From the IMG/VR virus record IMGVR_UViG_3300030107_004830, positions 1 through 27,443 of that record: 27,443 nucleotides of DNA; one strand, 5' to 3'. The notes under the pieces are model-generated. The model was given only the letters and a program-made list of their open reading frames with translations, was not told the DNA's origin and searched no databases. Position 1 is the stretch's first letter; each line of letters opens with the position of its first letter. Shown piece by piece: positions 3,676-24,911 of the stretch. Source of the stretch: a virus. Position numbers and translations under genes: made by a program.

Positions 3676-3745
3676 TGGATTGAATCCTGTTTTTTAGTTG
3701 GTTGATAACGAGTTGACCTGATTGGGTCGCTTGATCTTCAGACAT
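3599..3745 (-). CDS. Possible small ORF between ERF and SSB-like gene
   Basis: A 48-codon frame starts in a TAATG overlap with the ERF stop (ATG 3745-3743) and ends at 3599, overlapping the first 77 nt of the SSB-like gene in another frame. The TAATG junction is the overlap style used elsewhere here, which argues for translation. The C-terminal half (rich in Gln and Pro) may only reflect the other frame. It could work as a coupling peptide that delivers ribosomes to the SSB-like start, which has only a weak AGGA. Confidence 0.3.
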   Translation of the reverse strand: MSEDQATQSGQLVINQLKNRIQSNAKQVRVQPCPQAPNQMAGFRKPLR

Positions 3746-4410
3746 TACTTTTTAATTTCGGCGGCTAAATAATCACCGTGTTCCTTGAGAGTAATGTTGT
3801 TTTCTGTGATTTGCTCGGCTTTGATACCAAATTTTTCTTTAAAACTTTTGATGATTTCCTCTTTCCTCGGATGCTTCCTTAGATCAGATGAAATCTGAGC
3901 ACGATATGCAGGTGTAATGAATCCAGGTGAGTTTGTAGCAGGCCTTGAAACAGGTTGATTGGGTTTTGTAGGTGTCCTGCTAATACCCTTTTTAGACTCA
4001 GTTTTTGGAGTCAAAGTATCAGCGTCATCGTCATCACCAGCTAGACCATAAATTGCTAAAAGCGCATAACGTCTTGCGTAGGTAATAGCTGAGCCAAGAG
4101 CTTGCATGATGTTCCCTCTGTTAGGAACAAGATCAGGGAAAGGAAGTCGGCTGACTATTTCTTCTCCTGAAACATGCTTCAGAGTCGTCACTAAAATTGT
4201 GATGACTTGACCTGATTCTGTAACCGTTGAATCGAAGGTTTGCGTATGACACAGACCCAGATGAGTCGCTGGTTGAACAGCATTTAAGCCACCTGCAAGA
4301 GTTGTATAAAAACCATAATTGGCTTTACCGTCCTTCCCTGCTGCGTGGTGTTCTTGTTGAAATTGGACTAATGCTTCAGCTAAAGAAGCTGAAGCTTTGG
4401 ATGCGGGCAT
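3745..4410 (-). CDS. erf: ERF-family single-strand annealing protein
   Basis: 221 residues. The N-terminal 140 residues carry the ERF pattern: an ALVQFQ helix, a Y-G-F-Y-T-T segment, GLCHTQTFD, a beta strand with ITILVTTLKH, then QALGSAITYARRYALLAIYGLAGDDDDAD, the most conserved part. ERF proteins (P22 Erf is the founder) anneal complementary single strands in phage recombination and in circularising or concatemerising DNA. The C-terminal 80 residues are a polar linker and a small helical tail. The exonuclease, RusA and SSB-like neighbours support the role. There is no Shine-Dalgarno; the ATG directly follows AAAAACCAC, with a palindrome 31 nt beyond that leader. Confidence 0.92.
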   Translation of the reverse strand: MPASKASASLAEALVQFQQEHHAAGKDGKANYGFYTTLAGGLNAVQPATHLGLCHTQTFDSTVTESGQVITILVTTLKHVSGEEIVSRLPFPDLVPNRGNIMQALGSAITYARRYALLAIYGLAGDDDDADTLTPKTESKKGISRTPTKPNQPVSRPATNSPGFITPAYRAQISSDLRKHPRKEEIIKSFKEKFGIKAEQITENNITLKEHGDYLAAEIKK

Positions 4411-4457
4411 GTGGTTTTTGAGGGGGTCTCTTTTACTTTTTAATTTTAATAAGATTA
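4411..4457 (-). promoter_or_regulatory. Palindrome plus AAAAACCAC leader for the ERF gene
   Basis: TAATTTTAATAAGATTA at 4441-4457 matches the window consensus at 15 of 17 positions. Read toward the gene it contains TAAAAT, which could act as a -10 element. AAAAACCAC at 4419-4411 abuts the start codon with no spacer. It separates the ERF-SSB unit from the RusA-exonuclease genes upstream. Confidence 0.6.
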
Positions 4458-4952: not shown

Positions 4953-5569
4953 AAGCTCTCCCTCTCGGAGCTGAATTTCTCCCATGCTTCCTTCCATGCC
5001 AATCTGCACGTTAGAGGATCTTGTTCATCTCCAATAAGACATGTATTAGGTCTTGACCAAATAGTCCTGCAACTATCAACCACAATTTTGTGTTGGTTAG
5101 CCAAGGCCTCAACATAACTTCCTAATTGAGCATCCGTGTTATAAGTTTTTTTATTTGATTTGCTTTGAGTTTTTAGGTCAATTAGAACTAATTTGTCTTC
5201 ATTGTGGTCATAACCAAGAACATCAAATTGTCCTCCGACTGATTTCTCTAAATCGGGGATCATATATTCAACTGCCCATGTTTCAAAATTTTCCCAAAAT
5301 GGATCTGAAAGAAGTGGACGAACCCACTCTTCATAGTCTCCTGCATTGGGTTGTTTATCACCTAATAGAAATTGCTCCAGACAATAATGAACCTGAACTC
5401 CTCGAGGTTCCCAGATATGACGATACCGTTCAATATTGGCCATCGCCTCTGGAGTTTTATTTGAGCCTGTTACTTGAGTTGTCGAGTAGGCAAGCCATTC
5501 GCCTGTCGGTTCCCAACAATACTGATGACGTTCTTCGTCACGAAAAATAGGGAGCGGTTTAAGCTTCAT
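4949..5569 (-). CDS. PD-(D/E)XK exonuclease, Cas4/RecB-like
   Basis: 206 residues from the ATG at 5569, chosen because it overlaps the upstream stop in an ATGA and is preceded by TTGGAG at proper spacing. The open frame extends to 5686 but would overlap the winged-helix gene by 121 nt. Catalytic motifs read in order: H61 in VHYCLEQFL, E101, D116 in GGQFDVLGYD, D131-L-K133 in LIDLKTQ, and Q148-x-x-x-Y152. This is the RecB/Cas4-type nuclease pattern. In phages such enzymes resect double-strand ends to give substrate to an annealing protein, which fits the ERF gene two genes downstream. Confidence 0.85.
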   Translation of the reverse strand: MKLKPLPIFRDEERHQYCWEPTGEWLAYSTTQVTGSNKTPEAMANIERYRHIWEPRGVQVHYCLEQFLLGDKQPNAGDYEEWVRPLLSDPFWENFETWAVEYMIPDLEKSVGGQFDVLGYDHNEDKLVLIDLKTQSKSNKKTYNTDAQLGSYVEALANQHKIVVDSCRTIWSRPNTCLIGDEQDPLTCRLAWKEAWEKFSSERESF

Positions 5570-5907
5570 TGAACTCCAAGGTGGGTTGCGAAATAGACTC
5601 GGGCAGTTCGTCCACTCCTTGTAGGTCTTCTTAGAGGTTTTTTTGTCTGTGGGTCGTTCTTGAATTTTACGTAAGGGGGCTGGCATGTTATCAAATCTCG
5701 TAAGCGGGCAGATGCTGTTTGGTGTTTCATTCCGAGGATTGCTTCTATCTCGTCACAAGTAAGACCATGAGGACTCGATTTGACGGCATGTAAAACATCG
5801 AGACACATTCCATTAAGTTGATTTACGATGCTTTCAGCTGCATCGATTGACGGCTCAGTGTGATTATGGGGAGCTGTCAGATAATTAAAAAGGTCTGTTT
5901 GGGTCAT
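5566..5907 (-). CDS. Winged helix-turn-helix protein
   Basis: 113 residues. Residues 34-73 form three helices of a winged-helix DNA-binding fold, with HGLTCDEIEAILGM as the second helix and HQTASARLRDL as the likely recognition helix. Residues 78-107 (basic, ending RTARVYFAT) look like the wing. It resembles small phage proteins next to nuclease genes that are predicted to bind DNA. The start overlaps the upstream gene in ATGA and the end overlaps the exonuclease start in ATGA, so it is read in an operon with them. It could be a regulator or a replication accessory. Confidence 0.75.
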   Translation of the reverse strand: MTQTDLFNYLTAPHNHTEPSIDAAESIVNQLNGMCLDVLHAVKSSPHGLTCDEIEAILGMKHQTASARLRDLITCQPPYVKFKNDPQTKKPLRRPTRSGRTARVYFATHLGVQ

Positions 5908-6221
5908 GTTGGAAAGTCCTTTGGATCTGGTGAAGCTTGAACTTCTTCAGGTTGAAATTGCGGATTGATCTTTGCGTCTATTTCTTCTTTGGTCATTCCT
6001 CTAAATTCTTCTAAAGGATTTTCGTGTCTTTTCCCCGGATATCCAAGTCCATAAAGAGCGGGTTTTGATTCCCAACATTCTCTGGTGTATTTAGTCCCCG
6101 GACTTTCGTTATCGAAATCTTCAACGGTCCACATTGGGATGTCTGGGTTAGCTGGATTCGGTTTGATTAATCCTTCTCTAAGAGTTTTCAGGATCGAACC
6201 TTTATTAAAAAGTGGTTCCAT
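5904..6221 (-). CDS. Conserved cyanophage-type hypothetical protein
   Basis: 105 residues with a conserved-looking stretch PANPDIPMWTVEDFD near residue 22 and an acidic, Pro-rich C-terminus. From memory, the PNPANPDIPMWTVEDLD-type motif recurs in small proteins of marine cyanophages. No catalytic residues or membrane segments are evident. It is flanked by one-base and ATGA overlaps, so it is a middle gene of the 6847-4949 operon. Function unknown. Confidence 0.7.
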   Translation of the reverse strand: MEPLFNKGSILKTLREGLIKPNPANPDIPMWTVEDFDNESPGTKYTRECWESKPALYGLGYPGKRHENPLEEFRGMTKEEIDAKINPQFQPEEVQASPDPKDFPT

Positions 6222-6847
6222 TAAATAATCCCCTCAACTAATGGATTCCCAGAATCGTCAGCTCTAAAGACTCGACTCGCTGGATGATTGATAGGTTGTT
6301 CAGCTTGAAAGGATCCTTTGGTCTTAGTTCCAAAGGTTTCATAGTTTTTAAGAGTGATACCTGACCAAGGTCCTTTTGGACCACCTACGATGGCCAGCTC
6401 AAGTTGAGTCTTGACAACTTCAGAACCATATTTCTTTTTGATTTGAGAGAGGCCACTAATCAAAAGGTTGAAAGATTCTTCTGTTTTACGTCCTGTTTTA
6501 ACTTTCCAAAAGGACTCGATTAAATCTGAAAAGGAACTGAGTTCAAAAGGAATTAAATCTCGATGAAATTTGAACCTAGTTTTTTTGAAAATTTCTTTCT
6601 CTTTATTTATAGTATTAGGTACTCTATTAGTATTAGATAAAGTACCTTCGCTCTTTTCTTCTTTCTTTTTTACCTTTGTGTCGGTGTCCGTACCGCTCGG
6701 TACTTTAAGGGTATCATGCTCCGCAACCCCCCTTAGACCGTCATAAACCATTTGATTTACAAATGCAGTCGTGGACAACCATGGAAGCTTTTGCTCTTGG
6801 CATTTGGATAGTAAATCCACATCGATTGGAACGTTTCTAGTAGGCAT
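6221..6847 (-). CDS. Possible replication initiation or helicase-loader protein
   Basis: 208 residues. Residues 1-45 could form a small helical DNA-binding or ribbon-helix-helix-like domain. Residues 46-95 are a charged, low-complexity linker rich in Lys, Thr and Glu. Residues 100-175 form a second domain with FWKVKTGRKTEESF and a terminal GPWSGITLKNYETFG. The layout of a DNA-binding N-terminus, a linker and a C-terminal W-x-G-I-T-x-x-N-Y motif resembles phage replication proteins of the DnaT/loader sort, but I cannot name the family with confidence. It is the first gene of the recombination operon, which is a usual place for a replication gene. Confidence 0.6.
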   Translation of the reverse strand: MPTRNVPIDVDLLSKCQEQKLPWLSTTAFVNQMVYDGLRGVAEHDTLKVPSGTDTDTKVKKKEEKSEGTLSNTNRVPNTINKEKEIFKKTRFKFHRDLIPFELSSFSDLIESFWKVKTGRKTEESFNLLISGLSQIKKKYGSEVVKTQLELAIVGGPKGPWSGITLKNYETFGTKTKGSFQAEQPINHPASRVFRADDSGNPLVEGII

Positions 6848-6862
6848 TGATGTGCTAAATGT

Positions 6863-6899
6863 GTGGTTTTAATGCGTGTTTCATGCTTAATCATGCTGT
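6863..6899 (-). promoter_or_regulatory. AAAACCAC leader and period-10 direct repeat
   Basis: AAAACCAC (6870-6863) lies 15 nt before the ATG of the replication-like gene. Beyond it, TCATGCT occurs twice with a 10-bp period (6881-6887 and 6891-6897), one helical turn apart. The usual palindrome is absent here, although ATTAAG within the repeat is a partial match. The divergent plus-strand gene at 6995 may share this control region. Confidence 0.45.
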
Positions 6900-6960: not shown

Positions 6961-6966
6961 TATAAT
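6961..6966 (+). promoter_or_regulatory. Candidate -10 element TATAAT
   Basis: A perfect TATAAT sits 28 nt before the ATG at 6995 and about 18 nt before its GGAGG. No good -35 box is present at 16-18 nt, which is common for marine picocyanobacterial promoters. It would drive the single plus-strand gene that follows. Confidence 0.4.
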
Positions 6967-6994: not shown

Positions 6995-7195
6995 ATGACC
7001 TCGACCACTAGGATCAAGGAAATAAGAAAAGAGTTATTTGAATATGGAGCTGATCCGTATCAAATTGCAGCCGAAGCAATAGATAGAGGAGACCGTCTTT
7101 TAGAGCAAGTCAATCGTCTGCAAAAGGTTCTTTCCCAAGTCCCTGATTTATCAGCTCGCGGACAACATTGCTCTGACTCATACCTGACTCATTAG
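6995..7195 (+). CDS. Hypothetical helical protein, 66 aa
   Basis: The start is set by GGAGG four bases before the ATG at 6995; the frame is open upstream to 6926 but has no comparable site. The first 46 residues form charged amphipathic helices (KEIRKELFEYGADPYQIAAEAIDRGDRLLEQVNRLQ) with coiled-coil character. The last 28 residues are antisense to the ribbon-helix-helix gene on the other strand and may be functionally neutral. No family recognised. Convergent overlap with that gene is 86 nt. Confidence 0.55.
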   Translation: MTSTTRIKEIRKELFEYGADPYQIAAEAIDRGDRLLEQVNRLQKVLSQVPDLSARGQHCSDSYLTH

Positions 7196-7286
7196 CAAGC
7201 TGAGTGATTTGATCTTTTACTTCTTCTGTAACACTGACTTGAATAATACGATTCCATCGGTCAAGTCCTCTTTCTCGATTTGACAT
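7110..7286 (-). CDS. Ribbon-helix-helix DNA-binding protein
   Basis: 58 residues from the ATG at 7286; an open extension to a TTG at 7316 adds ten unrelated residues. After a basic N-terminus comes the strand IIQVSVTEEV, then two helices (KDQITQLANESG and SQSNVVRELINQGL). This is the CopG/Arc-type pattern, where the strand of a dimer enters the major groove of a short palindrome. A consensus palindrome lies 45 nt upstream of the start (7331-7347), so autoregulation is plausible. It is the clearest small repressor candidate in the window. Confidence 0.78.
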   Translation of the reverse strand: MSNRERGLDRWNRIIQVSVTEEVKDQITQLANESGMSQSNVVRELINQGLGKEPFADD

Positions 7287-7325
7287 AAGAGAAGGAAATA
7301 AGCTGAGGGTAAACAAGGTTTAAAT

Positions 7326-7541
7326 CTATTTTATCTTATTAAGATTAACAGTATTGTAAAAAAGTTCAAGTTCTGCATCTGTAATTTTATGAAGAGCGTC
7401 TAAATCCTCTTTACTTATTTTCAAACCTTGCATTGTTTGAGGTTCTTCGGGTTCTGGAGCTTTAGGAGTCCAAGCATCAATTAACAGCTCAAGCTCTTTT
7501 ATTCGAGCTTTTGCTGCTGCGATTCTTGATTCTCTATCCAA
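7326..7541 (-). CDS. Hypothetical protein, TTG start, 71 aa
   Basis: Starts at TTG (7541-7539) behind a strong AAGGAGG and overlaps the preceding small gene by 8 nt. Residues 1-25 form a charged helix, 26-40 are Pro/Glu rich, and 42-71 another helical segment. The last codons overlap the palindrome at 7331-7347, so this coding end doubles as the control site of the ribbon-helix-helix gene. No family recognised. Confidence 0.65.
   Translation of the reverse strand: MDRESRIAAAKARIKELELLIDAWTPKAPEPEEPQTMQGLKISKEDLDALHKITDAELELFYNTVNLNKIK
7331..7347 (-). promoter_or_regulatory. Palindrome upstream of ribbon-helix-helix gene
   Basis: TTATCTTATTAAGATTA matches the consensus at 16 of 17 positions and lies inside the last codons of the preceding gene. 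Read toward the minus-strand gene it gives TAAGAT followed by AAAATAG, a possible -10 region. No clear AAAAACCAC follows; only TTTAAACC is present. Confidence 0.6.
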
Positions 7542-7698
7542 GTCCGTCCTCCTTTTCTGACTCCATTATGTCCTCAATATCGGCAAGGGCATCTTTTTGC
7601 TCCTGGGCGGTTCTTGAATAATCAATCTCATATCCAGCAGCTCTAAGTCGAGCAATTTTCCAGATGGCAATAATTTCACCTGCTGTTAAACGAGTCAT
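7534..7698 (-). CDS. Small hypothetical protein, 54 aa
   Basis: An ATG at 7698 overlaps the upstream stop in ATGA, and the stop at 7534 overlaps the downstream TTG by 8 nt, so both ends are set by coupling. The protein is helical: MTRLTAGEIIAIWKIARLRAAGYEI followed by a long acidic helix ending EDGLG. Its tight fit in the operon and codon use like its neighbours support it as a real gene. No function can be assigned. Confidence 0.65.
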   Translation of the reverse strand: MTRLTAGEIIAIWKIARLRAAGYEIDYSRTAQEQKDALADIEDIMESEKEDGLG

Positions 7699-8216
7699 TG
7701 TTTATCTTCCCTATAGCTAAAGCGATTGGACGCAGTGTCTTCTTCGAGAATAATCCCTATACCCGGATCTTCTCGTCTTAGAAGCAAATGAATAGGAACT
7801 TTATTCATATCCAAGTAACTTCCAAGCTTAAGGAAAACATCGACAGGTAGATCCATTGCATCTTTTTCATAATCAGGAGAATGTTTTTTTGATTCCGTGT
7901 ACCAGAAAACAGAACGAGTTCCAGATGAATCAGTCCACATAAAACGACCTTTAGTCAAGATCTCAGAACTGTATTCTTCAATCCACTTGTCCGCAGGTCT
8001 TCCGCAATCCTCGTCCTCAGATCCCACAATTAAGACAATCGGCCAAGGTTTTGTCCGATGTGATTTCCATACTTGATGCAATTCCCAAGGAAGACCTTCT
8101 TCCTCTCTTTTTGCAATTTGTTTTGAAGCTCGTTTTAGAACTTCTTCTCTAGTGCTTCCAAACATGGTGCTTTTGTCAATATGCACCTCCCAGCCTTCGA
8201 TCATTTTGTTGTTCAT
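7695..8216 (-). CDS. Hypothetical protein, 173 aa
   Basis: Largest gene of the 8894-7110 operon. It is rich in Trp and charged residues, with WELHQVWKSHRTKPWPIVLIVGSEDEDCGRP in the centre and a C-terminal PIHLLLRREDPGIGIILEED. The alternation suggests an alpha/beta fold, but no catalytic motif is recognisable. An internal ATG at residue 5 is an alternative start. The first gene-to-gene junction overlaps the upstream stop by 4 nt and the downstream gene starts in ATGA. Probably an early host-takeover or regulatory protein by position only. Confidence 0.65.
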   Translation of the reverse strand: MNNKMIEGWEVHIDKSTMFGSTREEVLKRASKQIAKREEEGLPWELHQVWKSHRTKPWPIVLIVGSEDEDCGRPADKWIEEYSSEILTKGRFMWTDSSGTRSVFWYTESKKHSPDYEKDAMDLPVDVFLKLGSYLDMNKVPIHLLLRREDPGIGIILEEDTASNRFSYREDKQ

Positions 8217-8479: not shown

Positions 8480-8664
8480 TTGTTCCAGTTGAGATAAAGA
8501 GCAGAATTTGGGCCATAGGTCATTTCTAAAACAGGCCAAGTTTTAAAAATCAATGCTTTATTAGCTGGATCGGCACTCAAAGCTGCTTCAGCTAATTTTT
8601 GAATAAAGCCACCTCCATAAGAGATGGCAACTTGAAGAGTTTTAAATTGTTCGTTGGAATCCAT
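8476..8664 (-). CDS. Hypothetical protein, 62 aa
   Basis: Short soluble protein with an N-terminal helix (EQFKTLQVAISYGGGFIQKLAEAAL) and a C-terminal FKTWPVLEMTYGPNSALY. The pattern of a helix followed by WPVLE.YGP is reminiscent of small cyanophage proteins of unknown function. The start overlaps the previous stop by one base. No membrane segment. Confidence 0.65.
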   Translation of the reverse strand: MDSNEQFKTLQVAISYGGGFIQKLAEAALSADPANKALIFKTWPVLEMTYGPNSALYLNWNK

Positions 8665-8894
8665 TAGTACCTTTCTCCTTCGATGTGTTTTGTACAGGAA
8701 TACTTGAGGCCATCTTTTTTGGCATACCCAACTAATTCATTTTTTTCTTCTTCTGAATAGGCATAGTCTTCCCAGTCAGCAGTGACAATGAACCAATAGT
8801 ATTTTGGATTTTGTTCTCTTTCTAGTTCCTCTCGGTAGAGTTGGTCTTGTTCTTCCTCGTATTGCCTGAGGGCAGTCTCATGAAAATCGGACAT
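8664..8894 (-). CDS. Hypothetical acidic protein, 76 aa
   Basis: First gene of a six-gene minus-strand operon running to 7110. The N-terminal half is a Glu/Gln/Tyr-rich helix, and the C-terminal half has PKYYWFIVTADWEDYAYSEEE. The overall charge is strongly acidic, as in several DNA-mimic or host-interaction proteins, but that is only compositional. The start has no Shine-Dalgarno; instead AAAAACCAC ends one base before the ATG. Confidence 0.65.
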   Translation of the reverse strand: MSDFHETALRQYEEEQDQLYREELEREQNPKYYWFIVTADWEDYAYSEEEKNELVGYAKKDGLKYSCTKHIEGERY

Positions 8895-8895
8895 C

Positions 8896-8933
8896 GTGGT
8901 TTTTGTTTAACTGAATTAATCTTATTAAGAATA
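8896..8933 (-). promoter_or_regulatory. Palindrome plus AAAAACCAC leader, minus-strand operon
   Basis: TAATCTTATTAAGAATA (8917-8933) matches the consensus at 16 of 17 positions; read toward the gene it contains TAAGATTAA. AAAAACCAC (8904-8896) follows 12 nt later and ends one base before the ATG at 8894. The site is one half of a divergent pair with 8988-9041. Confidence 0.65.
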
Positions 8934-8987: not shown

Positions 8988-9041
8988 TATTCCTATTAAG
9001 ATTAGTGCATGAGGAATTTATTCTTCATATCCAAAAACCAC
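8988..9041 (+). promoter_or_regulatory. Palindrome plus AAAAACCAC leader, plus-strand gene
   Basis: TATTCCTATTAAGATTA (8988-9004) matches at 15 of 17 positions, with an additional half-site TTATAAGAAT just upstream (8979-8988). AAAAACCAC at 9033-9041 is followed by GGAG and the ATG at 9054, the one case where the leader and a Shine-Dalgarno coexist. Confidence 0.6.
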
Positions 9042-9053
9042 ACGGAGATTTGA

Positions 9054-9203
9054 ATGGGTCAATTAGCTGATCTGATGCGTGACACTCTCAACGAGATGAA
9101 ACGCCAAGACGACGAGCTTCAAGAGAAACTCAACAAAGTCGTCAAGACCGCAGACAAGTTGGTCAAAGAAACCGATAAACTCCTCGAAATGATCGAAGAG
9201 TAA
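9054..9203 (+). CDS. Small coiled-coil protein, 49 aa
   Basis: Starts after CGGAGATTTGA and ends just before a strong terminator, so it is a one-gene unit between a palindrome promoter and a terminator. The whole protein is one charged amphipathic helix (GQLADLMRDTLNEMKRQDDE then KLNKVVKTADKLVKETDKLL) with heptad spacing of Leu/Val, so a coiled-coil oligomer is expected. Role unknown; such small proteins in early phage regions often bind host proteins. Confidence 0.75.
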   Translation: MGQLADLMRDTLNEMKRQDDELQEKLNKVVKTADKLVKETDKLLEMIEE

Positions 9204-9564: not shown

Positions 9565-9600
9565 TATTCTTATTAAGATTAAAACATCTTTAAAAACCAC
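9565..9600 (+). promoter_or_regulatory. Palindrome plus AAAAACCAC leader for DUF2958 gene
   Basis: TATTCTTATTAAGATTA (9565-9581) matches the consensus at 16 of 17 positions. AAAAACCAC at 9592-9600 follows 10 nt later and ends three bases before the ATG at 9604. This is the cleanest example of the composite element. Confidence 0.7.
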
Positions 9601-9603
9601 ACC

Positions 9604-9885
9604 ATGAAGCTATTAACAAAAGCTCTCGAGAAGAAACTTCCTCTTCTTAATTCTGCGACCAACAAAGCCTATGTGAAATGGTTTACACCTTGGACATATT
9701 GGACTTGGTACGTTATGGAATACGATCCAGAAACAGGTGATTGTTTCGGATACGTTGAAGGCCACGAAAAAGAGATGGGCTACTTCAACAAGAAAGAGAT
9801 TGAAGAGCTTAATGGGCCATTCGGTTTAAAAGTTGAAAGAGATCTTTCTTTTGAAACAACAGACTTCGAGGAATTAGTTAAATGA
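9604..9885 (+). CDS. DUF2958 domain protein
   Basis: 93 residues covering a whole DUF2958 domain: LTKALEKKLPLL at the start, VKWFTPWTYWTWYVMEYDPETG in the middle, then FGYVEGHEKEMGYFNKKEIEEL and GPFGLKVERDL. The Trp-rich central strand and the GHEKE-GYF motif are the family signature as I recall it. The domain is common on plasmids and phages and has no established function. It is the first gene of a tight five-gene plus-strand unit ending at 10659. Confidence 0.88.
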   Translation: MKLLTKALEKKLPLLNSATNKAYVKWFTPWTYWTWYVMEYDPETGDCFGYVEGHEKEMGYFNKKEIEELNGPFGLKVERDLSFETTDFEELVK

Positions 9886-10807: not shown

Positions 10808-11053
10808 TTAGTTAACTGGGAATAACTCAACAACTTGTTTTTTAGCAGCTCCGAAAACAATAATCATGTCTTTTAAAGCAGCTGCAAATTCCTTGTCGTG
10901 AGTAGCCAAGCGGCGATTAAAGTCATTTCTGTAATCGCTTAAGCTGAGTTCCTTGTTATCCAACTTTGCTTCCAATTCCTCAATTCTTTGAAGACTGGCT
11001 TTGTAAGCGGCAAAGATCTCAGCTTTTTTGTTTGCTTGGGTGACCTTAGTCAT
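10808..11053 (-). CDS. Hypothetical coiled-coil protein, 81 aa
   Basis: A single minus-strand gene between its own palindrome promoter and a bidirectional terminator. Residues 6-45 form a charged helix with heptads (AAYKASLQRIEELEAKLDNKEL). The C-terminal 25 residues are more hydrophobic (AALKDMIIVFGAAKKQVVELF), perhaps a second amphipathic helix. It resembles small phage scaffolding or host-inhibition proteins in form only. Function unknown. Confidence 0.7.
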   Translation of the reverse strand: MTKVTQANKKAEIFAAYKASLQRIEELEAKLDNKELSLSDYRNDFNRRLATHDKEFAAALKDMIIVFGAAKKQVVELFPVN

Positions 11054-11067
11054 TTGGAAAACTCCAT

Positions 11068-11116
11068 GTGGTTTTTAGCGTGAGTGGTGACTCACTTCTT
11101 AATCTTATTGAGATTA
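11068..11116 (-). promoter_or_regulatory. Palindrome, hairpin and AAAAACCAC leader
   Basis: TAATCTTATTGAGATTA (11100-11116) matches the consensus at 16 of 17 positions. Between it and the AAAAACCAC leader (11076-11068) lies a perfect hairpin, GTGAGT/ACTCAC with a four-base loop (11080-11095). The leader ends 14 nt before the ATG at 11053. It is the minus-strand half of a divergent control region. Confidence 0.62.
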
Positions 11117-11161: not shown

Positions 11162-11178
11162 CAATCTTAGTAAGATAA
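11162..11178 (+). promoter_or_regulatory. Palindrome before the packaging operon
   Basis: CAATCTTAGTAAGATAA matches the consensus at 14 of 17 positions, with a perfect core ATCTTAGTAAGAT. It lies 27 nt before the ParB-like ATG and is followed by no AAAAACCAC leader. It is the only promoter-like element seen for the long plus operon that runs to 18343. Confidence 0.55.
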
Positions 11179-11205
11179 AATCGTTGCACTCCGTTGCTTA
11201 TCCCT

Positions 11206-11709
11206 ATGGCGTCTATAAAAGATTTAAAACCTGATCCTCAAAACGCTCGGAAAAGAACTGACCGATCCGCTTCCCTTATTCAAGAATCTATTAAACGATA
11301 TGGGACTGCTCGATCCATAGTCATTGATGAAGACAACCGCATCCTTGCTGGGAATGGAACTGTTGAAGGTGCAAAAGCTCTTGGTCTTGAAAATATAAAA
11401 GTTATCGAAACCGATGGATCAGAAATAATTGCAGTCAAGAGAACAGGATTAACTGAAGAACAAAAAATTGGTTTAGCTTTAGCTGATAACAGAACAAGTG
11501 ACTTATCAGATTGGGATCGGGAGATGCTCCATAACCTTTCTGAAACCCATGATGTTAGCCCTTGGTTTGACGAAGAAGACTTAGAAAATCTTTTAGGGAA
11601 TGACACCATGAAGGAATATGAAGGATCAACAGAACACTCAGAAGAAGATTTTGATAACTTCCAACACACTTGCCCTAGATGTGGATTTGAATTTGATGGA
11701 AAGAAATAA
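11206..11709 (+). CDS. ParB/sulfiredoxin-like domain protein
   Basis: 167 residues from the ATG at 11206; a TTG four codons upstream is possible. The ParB N-terminal fold is clear: IKDLKPDPQNARK, then LIQESIKRYG, IVIDEDNRILAGNGTVEGAKALG, and GLTEEQKIGLALADNRTSDLSDWD. The C-terminus HTCPRCGFEFDGKK is half of a zinc ribbon often seen on phage ParB-methyltransferase proteins. In phages this domain commonly stands next to or fused with a DNA methyltransferase, as here (14-nt overlap). It may guide modification or have nuclease or regulatory activity; segregation is unlikely since no ParA is present. Confidence 0.88.
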   Translation: MASIKDLKPDPQNARKRTDRSASLIQESIKRYGTARSIVIDEDNRILAGNGTVEGAKALGLENIKVIETDGSEIIAVKRTGLTEEQKIGLALADNRTSDLSDWDREMLHNLSETHDVSPWFDEEDLENLLGNDTMKEYEGSTEHSEEDFDNFQHTCPRCGFEFDGKK

Positions 11710-18528: not shown

Positions 18529-18556
18529 GTGGTTTGTCTTTATCTTAATAAGAATA
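18529..18556 (-). promoter_or_regulatory. Palindrome with shortened leader, divergent position
   Basis: TTATCTTAATAAGAATA (18540-18556) matches the consensus at 14 of 17 positions. CAAACCAC (18536-18529) lies only 3 nt away from it and 9 nt before the ATG at 18519. The plus-strand gene at 18573 begins 16 nt to the other side, so the site may serve both directions. Confidence 0.58.
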
Positions 18557-18572: not shown

Positions 18573-18836
18573 ATGAGGCCAAAACCTGAAACCATCTATC
18601 GGTACACCGATGGAAAGATGAAGTCAGAATTTGTTCAGACTGAAAAGGACGGAGAACCTATTGAAGCACGTTTTGTTGTTGCAGGGGAGGGCAAGGAATA
18701 CTGGGAGACAAGAACTGGGCTAAAATGGGAGGAGTCGCCTGTTTGTGATGCCTTACGGAAAGAAAAAAAAGGGAAAAAAGGGGGGGAAGAAAAAGTGATA
18801 ACAGGTAATGTTGACTTAAACACGCCTTCTTATTAA
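18573..18836 (+). CDS. Hypothetical protein, 87 aa
   Basis: First gene after the palindrome on the plus strand. The N-terminal 65 residues look like a small beta-rich domain (IYRYTDGKMKSEFVQTEKDG, then ARFVVAGEGKEYWETRTGLKW), followed by a Lys/Gly run (KKGKKGGEEK) from a purine-rich tract. The region lies between head genes, so it may be a virion or maturation accessory, but no family is recognised. The tract of A and G at 18764-18792 is prone to slippage. Confidence 0.65.
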   Translation: MRPKPETIYRYTDGKMKSEFVQTEKDGEPIEARFVVAGEGKEYWETRTGLKWEESPVCDALRKEKKGKKGGEEKVITGNVDLNTPSY

Positions 18837-23254: not shown

Positions 23255-23671
23255 ATGGCATTTTATCGGGGCCAACAAGGCTCAGTCAAATTTGACGATG
23301 CAGGCAGTTCTGCTGCTGCTATTACTTCAACTCGTTCATGGTCGATGACGGTTGAAAAAGAAGCACTAGAGACAACAGCACTTGGAGCAACATACGCCGC
23401 AAATGTTGGTGGAATTATTAGTGGTTCTGGTTCTGTTGAACTTCTATATACAGCTAGTTCATCTGACGAAACGAATGTTTTTATTGAGGCCGCAAACACA
23501 GCAGCTGATACTGGAGTTGCCTTATTTGAACTTTATTTAGACACAACAGGAACCAAAAAGATTTCCTTTGATGGTGTCATTACTTCGGCTGATTATTCAG
23601 CTACAGTTGGCGAATTAGAGGTTGTTACCTGTAACTTCGTCACTAACGGCGCAATCACTCTGGACATTTAA
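23255..23671 (+). CDS. Tail tube protein, copy 1
   Basis: 138 residues, beta-rich. It starts MAFYRGQQGSVKFDD, contains STRSWSMTVEKEALETTALG and GSGSVELLY, and ends GELEVVTCNFVTNGAITLDI. These are features of phage tail tube proteins: a strand describing the sheet, and the V-x-x-N-F-x-x-x-G-x-I end. It has the same length and start as the next gene, with which it shares the MAFYRGQQG and GEIEVVT-type segments. Both lie between the tail terminator and the chaperone. Confidence 0.88.
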   Translation: MAFYRGQQGSVKFDDAGSSAAAITSTRSWSMTVEKEALETTALGATYAANVGGIISGSGSVELLYTASSSDETNVFIEAANTAADTGVALFELYLDTTGTKKISFDGVITSADYSATVGELEVVTCNFVTNGAITLDI

Positions 23672-23673
23672 TC

Positions 23674-24090
23674 ATGGCTTTTTATAGAGGACAACAAGGA
23701 ACAGTCTTTTTCGATAAAGATTCTTCCGGCGGCAAATCTGAACTTGCTGCTGTTCGATCTTGGTCTGCTTCCCTAGAAAAAGAAGCAATTGCTGTTGATG
23801 CTCATGGGGATACTTCCCATAAGTTTATTGGTGGCATGTATGGCGGCTCTGGTACTTGCGAGCTTTTCTATGATGCTCCCGGCGGTGACAAGCAGGACTT
23901 CATCCATGAAGTTCAAACTACAAACGATCCCGCCAATGCTTTCATTGAGCTTTATCTTGATGAATCAGGCGGCAAAAAGATCACTGGCGAGATATTAGTG
24001 ACAGGTGCAGAGTATGGAGCTAATGTTGGTGAGATTGAAGTCGTTACTGTGAACTTTTCCTTTAACGGCGATATAACACTTGCAGTTTAA
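23674..24090 (+). CDS. Tail tube protein, copy 2
   Basis: 138 residues, a paralogue of the gene before it: the same MAFYRGQQGTV start, RSWSASLEKEAI for RSWSMTVEKEAL, GSGTCELFYD for GSGSVELLYT, and GEIEVVTVNFSFNGDITLAV at the end. Variation is greatest in the central loops. Two tube paralogues could form a mixed tube, serve at different tube positions, or one could carry a surface domain. It overlaps the chaperone start by one base (TAATG). Confidence 0.88.
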   Translation: MAFYRGQQGTVFFDKDSSGGKSELAAVRSWSASLEKEAIAVDAHGDTSHKFIGGMYGGSGTCELFYDAPGGDKQDFIHEVQTTNDPANAFIELYLDESGGKKITGEILVTGAEYGANVGEIEVVTVNFSFNGDITLAV

Positions 24091-24894: not shown

Positions 24895-24911
24895 TAATCT
24901 TAGGAAGAATA
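24895..24911. promoter_or_regulatory. Degenerate palindrome in divergent gap
   Basis: TAATCTTAGGAAGAATA matches the window consensus at 14 of 17 positions, and the mirror halves are intact except in the centre. The ATG of the minus gene (24893) starts directly beside it and the plus gene begins ten bases beyond, so it would have to act as operator or core promoter with a very short leader. Confidence 0.45.

Follow-up and report, generated by a model that had tools for sequence, protein, structure and literature searches.

A predicted ribbon-helix-helix repressor and its candidate palindromic operators on the promoters of an uncultured cyanophage-related virus

The DNA analysed here is the virus record IMGVR_UViG_3300030107_004830, and the whole stretch of 27,443 nt is referred to below as the window. 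The closest cultured phages by terminase and capsid are Prochlorococcus phage MED4-184/P-HS2, cyanophage MED4-117 and the Synechococcus phages KBS-S-2A and S-H1, with identities of about 54% for the terminase and 67–80% for the capsid. Since both proteins are nearest to those of cyanophages, the host is probably a marine cyanobacterium. The locus consists of a short ribbon-helix-helix (RHH) gene, a palindrome in front of it and an open reading frame (ORF) running against it; relatives that possess the RHH gene together with the palindromes are termed carriers.

7110-7286, minus strand: predicted RHH repressor gene, 58 aa, above the Pfam RHH_1 cut-off, with 22 homologous loci in viral contigs
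7331-7347, no strand assigned: candidate operator of 17 bp (core 7333-7345) over the -10 element of the RHH gene's own promoter, in the same place in 22 of 22 relatives
6995-7195, plus strand: small ORF of 66 aa, convergent with the RHH gene and overlapping its 3' end, found in 7 of 8 near-complete carriers and 0 of 11 non-carriers

Comparison of the 58-aa protein with Pfam gave a match to RHH_1 with an E-value of 2.3e-7 and 31 bits (cut-off 20.5), extending over model positions 2-38 of 39 and thus covering the strand-helix-helix core of the RHH (MetJ/Arc/CopG) family, and the PHROG annotated as 'Arc-like repressor' was matched with an E-value of 1.9e-5. By these profile matches the protein is a member of the RHH superfamily, as the original prediction of a 58-residue CopG/Arc-like protein had proposed. 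An alternative in-frame TTG at 7316 would yield 68 aa; the ATG start is preferred because it (MSN/MPN) is common to the relatives. In a monomer model, helices at residues 21-34 and 38-50 fit the RHH fold, while residues 3-18 form a low-confidence helix where the ribbon strand is expected, and Foldseek matches to Arc, CopG and AvtR were weak, with E-values above 0.1. The RHH N-terminus, expected to be the DNA-contacting ribbon, is 86–91% identical among the G003, G033 and G005 types, compared with 41–52% for the remaining sequence. The N-termini of the window and G001 are exceptional, with 45–68% identity to the rest, and that of the window is only 50–64% identical to relatives beyond G001. A search of cultured phages for the RHH protein gave no match, and among bacterial and archaeal genomes 44 pattern matches were obtained, none of which was confirmed.

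At 7333-7345 the palindrome ATCTTATTAAGAT agrees with the consensus at every position, in line with the original prediction of a consensus palindrome 45 nt before the RHH start; the measured gap to the ATG is 46 nt. Allowing at most one mismatch to ATCTTANTAAGAT, the window contains 7 sites, whereas 60 first-order Markov shuffles averaged 0.12 and never exceeded 1; a looser scan at 3 mismatches gave 34 sites against 23.6 expected and is hence uninformative. Orienting the sites toward the next gene extends the consensus to the 17-bp sequence TAATCTTANTAAGATTA. When all palindromes with 6-base halves and spacers of 0-5 were ranked, this motif came first in the window, tied with its own shifted register. 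For the window alone the ranking is not decisive, because shuffled AT-rich sequence occasionally reaches 11 with one palindrome or another; the point that matters is that this motif recurs from record to record. It ranked third or higher in each of the 14 other palindrome-carrying records of at least 9 kb included in the ranking, and outside the top three in all 11 ranked relatives without the RHH gene and site set. The other sites in the window are as follows.

4443-4455, minus strand: candidate operator/promoter, 32 nt from its target, the ERF recombination gene 3745-4410; gene preceded by the palindrome in 9 of 9 carriers and 0 of 2 non-carriers
8919-8931, minus strand: candidate operator/promoter of gene 8664-8894, gap 24 nt; 8 of 9 carriers
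8990-9002, plus strand: candidate operator with 2 mismatches, 51 nt ahead of gene 9054-9203; equally spaced pairs in G019 and G020
9567-9579, plus strand: candidate operator/promoter of gene 9604-9885, gap 24 nt; gene preceded by the palindrome in 6 of 6 carrier orthologues and 0 of 3 non-carriers
11102-11114, minus strand: candidate operator toward gene 10808-11053, gap 48 nt; relatives have paired sites near the ParB-like gene
11164-11176, plus strand: candidate operator, perfect match, 17 nt ahead of the TTG start of the ParB-like gene 11194-11709; from sequence match
18542-18554, plus strand: candidate operator, 18 nt ahead of the structural-region gene 18573-18836; from sequence match
24897-24909, no strand assigned: two-mismatch candidate, probably a chance match, unconserved in the five readable carrier relatives

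Nine sites had originally been proposed. The seven with at most one mismatch stand, and so does the two-mismatch site at 8990, since a pair of sites likewise spaced by 71 bp occurs in both G019 and G020. The ninth, at 24897, is doubtful and was rejected as an operator: five readable carrier relatives have no palindrome in the 90 nt before its gene; the G043 entry for gene 24717 was excluded. Genes found in carriers and non-carriers alike are preceded by the palindrome in carriers only. Within the carriers this rule is imperfect, as seen for the 8664 gene and for the ParB-like gene, for which only 4 of 8 carriers (and 0 of 4 non-carriers) have a site no more than 90 nt away. Sites in the region equivalent to 18542 precede other genes in the carriers.

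The palindromes are placed on promoters in a regular manner. The right half-site, TAAGAT, corresponds to the -10 element of sigma70-type promoters, and a TTGACA-like -35 element (4 of 6 positions or better) lies exactly 17 bp before it at 47 of 78 sites. The runner-up offset accounts for 14 sites and each of the others for 0-7. The distance from the site end to the start codon is 22-30 nt at 56 of these 78 sites. The RHH gene's own promoter has the -35 element TTTACA and a 16-bp spacer; several -35 boxes in the window match TTGACA poorly, at 2-3 of 6 positions. In the G005, G018 and G033 subgroup the -35 element itself lies within a weaker, degenerate copy of the palindrome 22 bp upstream, a distance of two helical turns. 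The 78 sites of the spacing count remained after 68 of 146 rows had been removed as near-duplicates, and conservation was counted on 41 sites after removal of 35 of 76 rows; G021 and G041 were excluded from both sets. Core conservation in the 41-site set arises partly by construction, because the sites were chosen by core match, while the flanks, the -35 element and the distance to the start are independent of that choice. Gene calls were made by a simple greedy ORF method, and intergenic counts are therefore approximate.

The correspondence of the right half with a -10 element at fixed spacing from the -35 element would also be expected if the palindrome were an unusual promoter element for the host or phage RNA polymerase or for an activator, with no repressor involved, and certain RHH proteins, AmrZ among them, are both activators and repressors. 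However, the left half-site, together with the outer TA/TA, mirrors the right half in its conservation, which is more than a promoter alone would need; sigma factors need no such symmetry, and orthologous genes in non-carriers manage without the element. We therefore consider this explanation very unlikely. It is slightly less likely still that the protein is a partition or DNA-organising RHH protein acting on the palindromes as centromere-like sites: proteins of this type (ParG/Omega) exist and also repress their own promoters, and one site pair adjoins the ParB-like gene, but the sites overlap -10 elements at fixed spacing and are scattered singly over many promoters, and the ParB-like gene precedes a methyltransferase gene, leading toward it and the terminase gene.

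The association of the RHH gene with the palindrome was examined in relatives. A search with the RHH alignment A1 identified 22 loci in viral contigs, and in 22 of 22 the palindrome, with 0-2 mismatches, lies directly before the RHH start; 19 loci have a gap of 15-17 nt and the other 3 one of 42-46 nt. A capsid search, of which the best 80 loci were kept and part were searched whole, contributed 28 of the 30 records searched whole; the other 2 came from the RHH search. The RHH gene was present in 7 of these 30 records, all with 5-11 sites. Among the 23 lacking it, 21 had no site, G021 had one, located inside a gene, and G002, a 13-kb fragment, had five. Restricted to near-complete records, 8 of 8 with the RHH gene have 7-11 sites and 11 of 11 without it have none, three of the latter having been read to 40 kb in one count and searched whole in another. 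The cultured phages KBS-S-2A, MED4-184 and S-H1 were scanned for the palindrome and have no site. Terminase identity to the window is 75–88% for carriers and 49–55% for the others; because the carriers form a single terminase group and have the whole early module in common, the co-occurrence may reflect one event.

Related phages possessing the palindrome set and lacking the RHH protein had been named as the case that would speak against the prediction, and no valid example was found. Viral contigs were also scanned, independently of any protein, for palindrome pairs separated by 20-50 nt. This yielded 17 stretches, 11 of them from new records, of which 3 carry the RHH gene; of the remaining eight, seven are 4-10 kb fragments in which no downstream RHH neighbour was matched, and the eighth is G041. 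With G002, the candidates G031, G032, G034, G036, G037, G039 and G040 were rejected as fragments (4-13 kb) with no downstream RHH neighbour match, which do not cover the RHH locus and the flank beyond it; G037 ends just beyond an RHH-type promoter site, and G040 matches the upstream neighbour only. G041, an unrelated, AT-rich viral contig, was rejected as well, having no matches to window proteins, a GC content of 31.6% and both of its perfect sites, spaced by 58 bp (L146:14321-14391), in a repeat.

Co-occurrence of this kind could also arise if another protein of the early module bound the palindrome and the RHH protein had its targets elsewhere, since the genes in question (5566-5907, 5904-6221, 6221-6847 and ORF 6995-7195) sit in the module common to all carriers. 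The product of 5566-5907 is a MarR-like helix-turn-helix (HTH) protein (Pfam MarR_2, E=2e-6), and MarR-type proteins are dimers that bind palindromes, but a convincing version was found in only 1 of 8 carriers, and it was rejected as the binder. The products of 5904-6221 and 6221-6847 were found in 8 of 8 carriers; the N-terminus of the latter varies while the palindrome stays constant, which makes it an unlikely binder. ORF 6995-7195 was likewise set aside, as it was not found in a search of the carrier G042, which has 9 sites. In the relatives examined, only the RHH gene is consistently preceded by the palindrome, and binding by a different early protein is in our view unlikely. The close identity of the RHH N-termini among the G003, G033 and G005 types, and the shared genes that have the palindrome in carriers alone, also favour the RHH protein.

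The protein family is read from sequence, as are the sites with their conservation and promoter placement and the protein–site match; from these we infer binding, repression, dimer contacts and timing as follows. The protein is very probably a dimeric repressor that recognises TAATCTTANTAAGATTA, regulates its own gene and about seven other promoters by promoter occlusion, and turns down early genes. In this mechanism an RHH dimer would bind the 17-bp palindrome and, because the operator is laid over the -10 element, should exclude the host RNA polymerase; occlusion combined with autoregulation appears the most likely mode of action. On its own promoter the repressor would exert negative autoregulation, a part of the original prediction that is strongly supported by the site just upstream of the gene, conserved in every RHH locus. 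In the G005/G018/G033 subgroup, the weaker copy over the -35 element suggests that neighbouring dimers may bind together, side by side. Beyond its own gene, predicted targets are the ERF gene, small early genes in both arms (8664-8894, 9054-9203, 9604-9885 and 10808-11053), the divergent promoters beside the ParB-like gene, including that of the ParB-like gene itself, and the structural-region gene 18573-18836.

The protein had also been proposed as the master regulator of the phage. Three observations support predicted control of the other sites: the co-occurrence of RHH gene and palindrome, the siteless orthologues in non-carriers and the fixed -10 placement. A regulator of everything is too strong, since at least two conserved promoters have no good site. 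The convergent ORF 6995-7195 and the 6221-6847 gene lie outside the regulon or nearly so. The former has a strong, conserved promoter (TATAAT at 6961-6966) without the palindrome and a conserved leader, and its product had no match in PHROGs.

The rising RHH level during infection would turn early genes down, rather than hold a prophage. A search for tyrosine integrases (PF00589), with positive controls, found none in 13 records, many or most of them fragments, which makes a repressor role in timing likelier than one in lysogeny.

Arc of phage P22 and CopG of plasmid pMV158 are very small RHH repressors of their own genes, with operators at promoters and few operators each. The protein described here resembles them as a tiny RHH protein and, from its sequence context, a predicted repressor of its own gene with promoter operators; it differs in having at least 7 candidate operators per genome, built into -10 elements; the sequence similarity is at family level only. 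SvtR of the archaeal virus SIRV1 is described in PMC5569661 as a small RHH dimer repressing its own promoter, with three further binding sites in the viral genome, a likeness to the own-promoter and additional sites predicted here; virus and promoters are archaeal in that case, and the SvtR consensus given there is different and less symmetric. MrpR of phage SPbeta, according to PMC10516654, binds a short repeat, SPBRE, in about ten phage promoter regions, has a recombinase fold and maintains lysogeny. It likewise represents one phage regulator with many short promoter sites, as predicted for the window, whereas here the protein is of the RHH type and no integrase of the tyrosine type searched was found in the 13 records. 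The antitoxin RelB, according to PMC2812701, is an RHH dimer; it reads the hexad repeats of a palindromic operator, with cooperative binding, and the review PMC5569661 reports both properties for RHH dimers; an RHH dimer on a palindromic hexad operator is also predicted here. RelB works with a toxin, whereas here the sites are genome-wide and the neighbouring genes tested (6221-6847, 7326-7541 and 7695-8216) matched no toxin family in either Pfam or PHROGs. A literature search covering titles, abstract openings and passages found no description of this regulator or palindrome, nor of an early-gene repressor for this phage group. By its sequence the putative repressor is a new and well-supported addition to the Arc/CopG/SvtR kind. 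It would give an uncultured cyanophage-related lineage a concrete regulatory map of one repressor, one operator and a defined list of promoters, and the short operator inside the -10 element, a compact design, could find use in laboratory cyanobacteria as a repressible promoter.

A second element was found in the leaders of the putative palindrome-controlled genes. In the palindrome-carrying records, CCAC occurs within 30 nt before the start of 32 of 50 such genes (deduplicated by removal of 66 of 116 rows; G021 and G041 are absent from this count), compared with 14 of 283 others, and AACCAC alone gives 29 of 50 versus 9 of 283, several of these nine also having a two-mismatch palindrome. The distance of the box to the palindrome or to the start varies, and the box does not resemble a Shine-Dalgarno sequence. 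The window has 8 copies of AAAACCAC (shuffle mean 1.6), 6 of them in gene leaders.

4411-4418, minus strand: AACCAC box, early-gene leader
6863-6870, minus strand: AACCAC box, early-gene leader
8896-8903, minus strand: AACCAC box, early-gene leader
9034-9041, plus strand: AACCAC box, early-gene leader
9593-9600, plus strand: AACCAC box, early-gene leader
11068-11075, minus strand: AACCAC box, early-gene leader

A speculative extension is a two-level early regulon, in which the RHH protein would act on the -10 palindrome and a second factor on the AACCAC box of the 5' leader, with the convergent palindrome-free gene opposing the repressor and setting a switch. If true, this would be a two-level early circuit undescribed for such phages.

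Two further observations concern individual genes. The gene 6221-6847 (minus strand), whose leader contains an AACCAC box, encodes a replication-type protein with an N-terminus that is variable between relatives and somewhat RHH-like by eye. In the structural region, 23255-24090 (plus strand) encodes two adjoining proteins of equal length (138 aa) with the common start MAFYRGQQG, apparently a tandem duplication.
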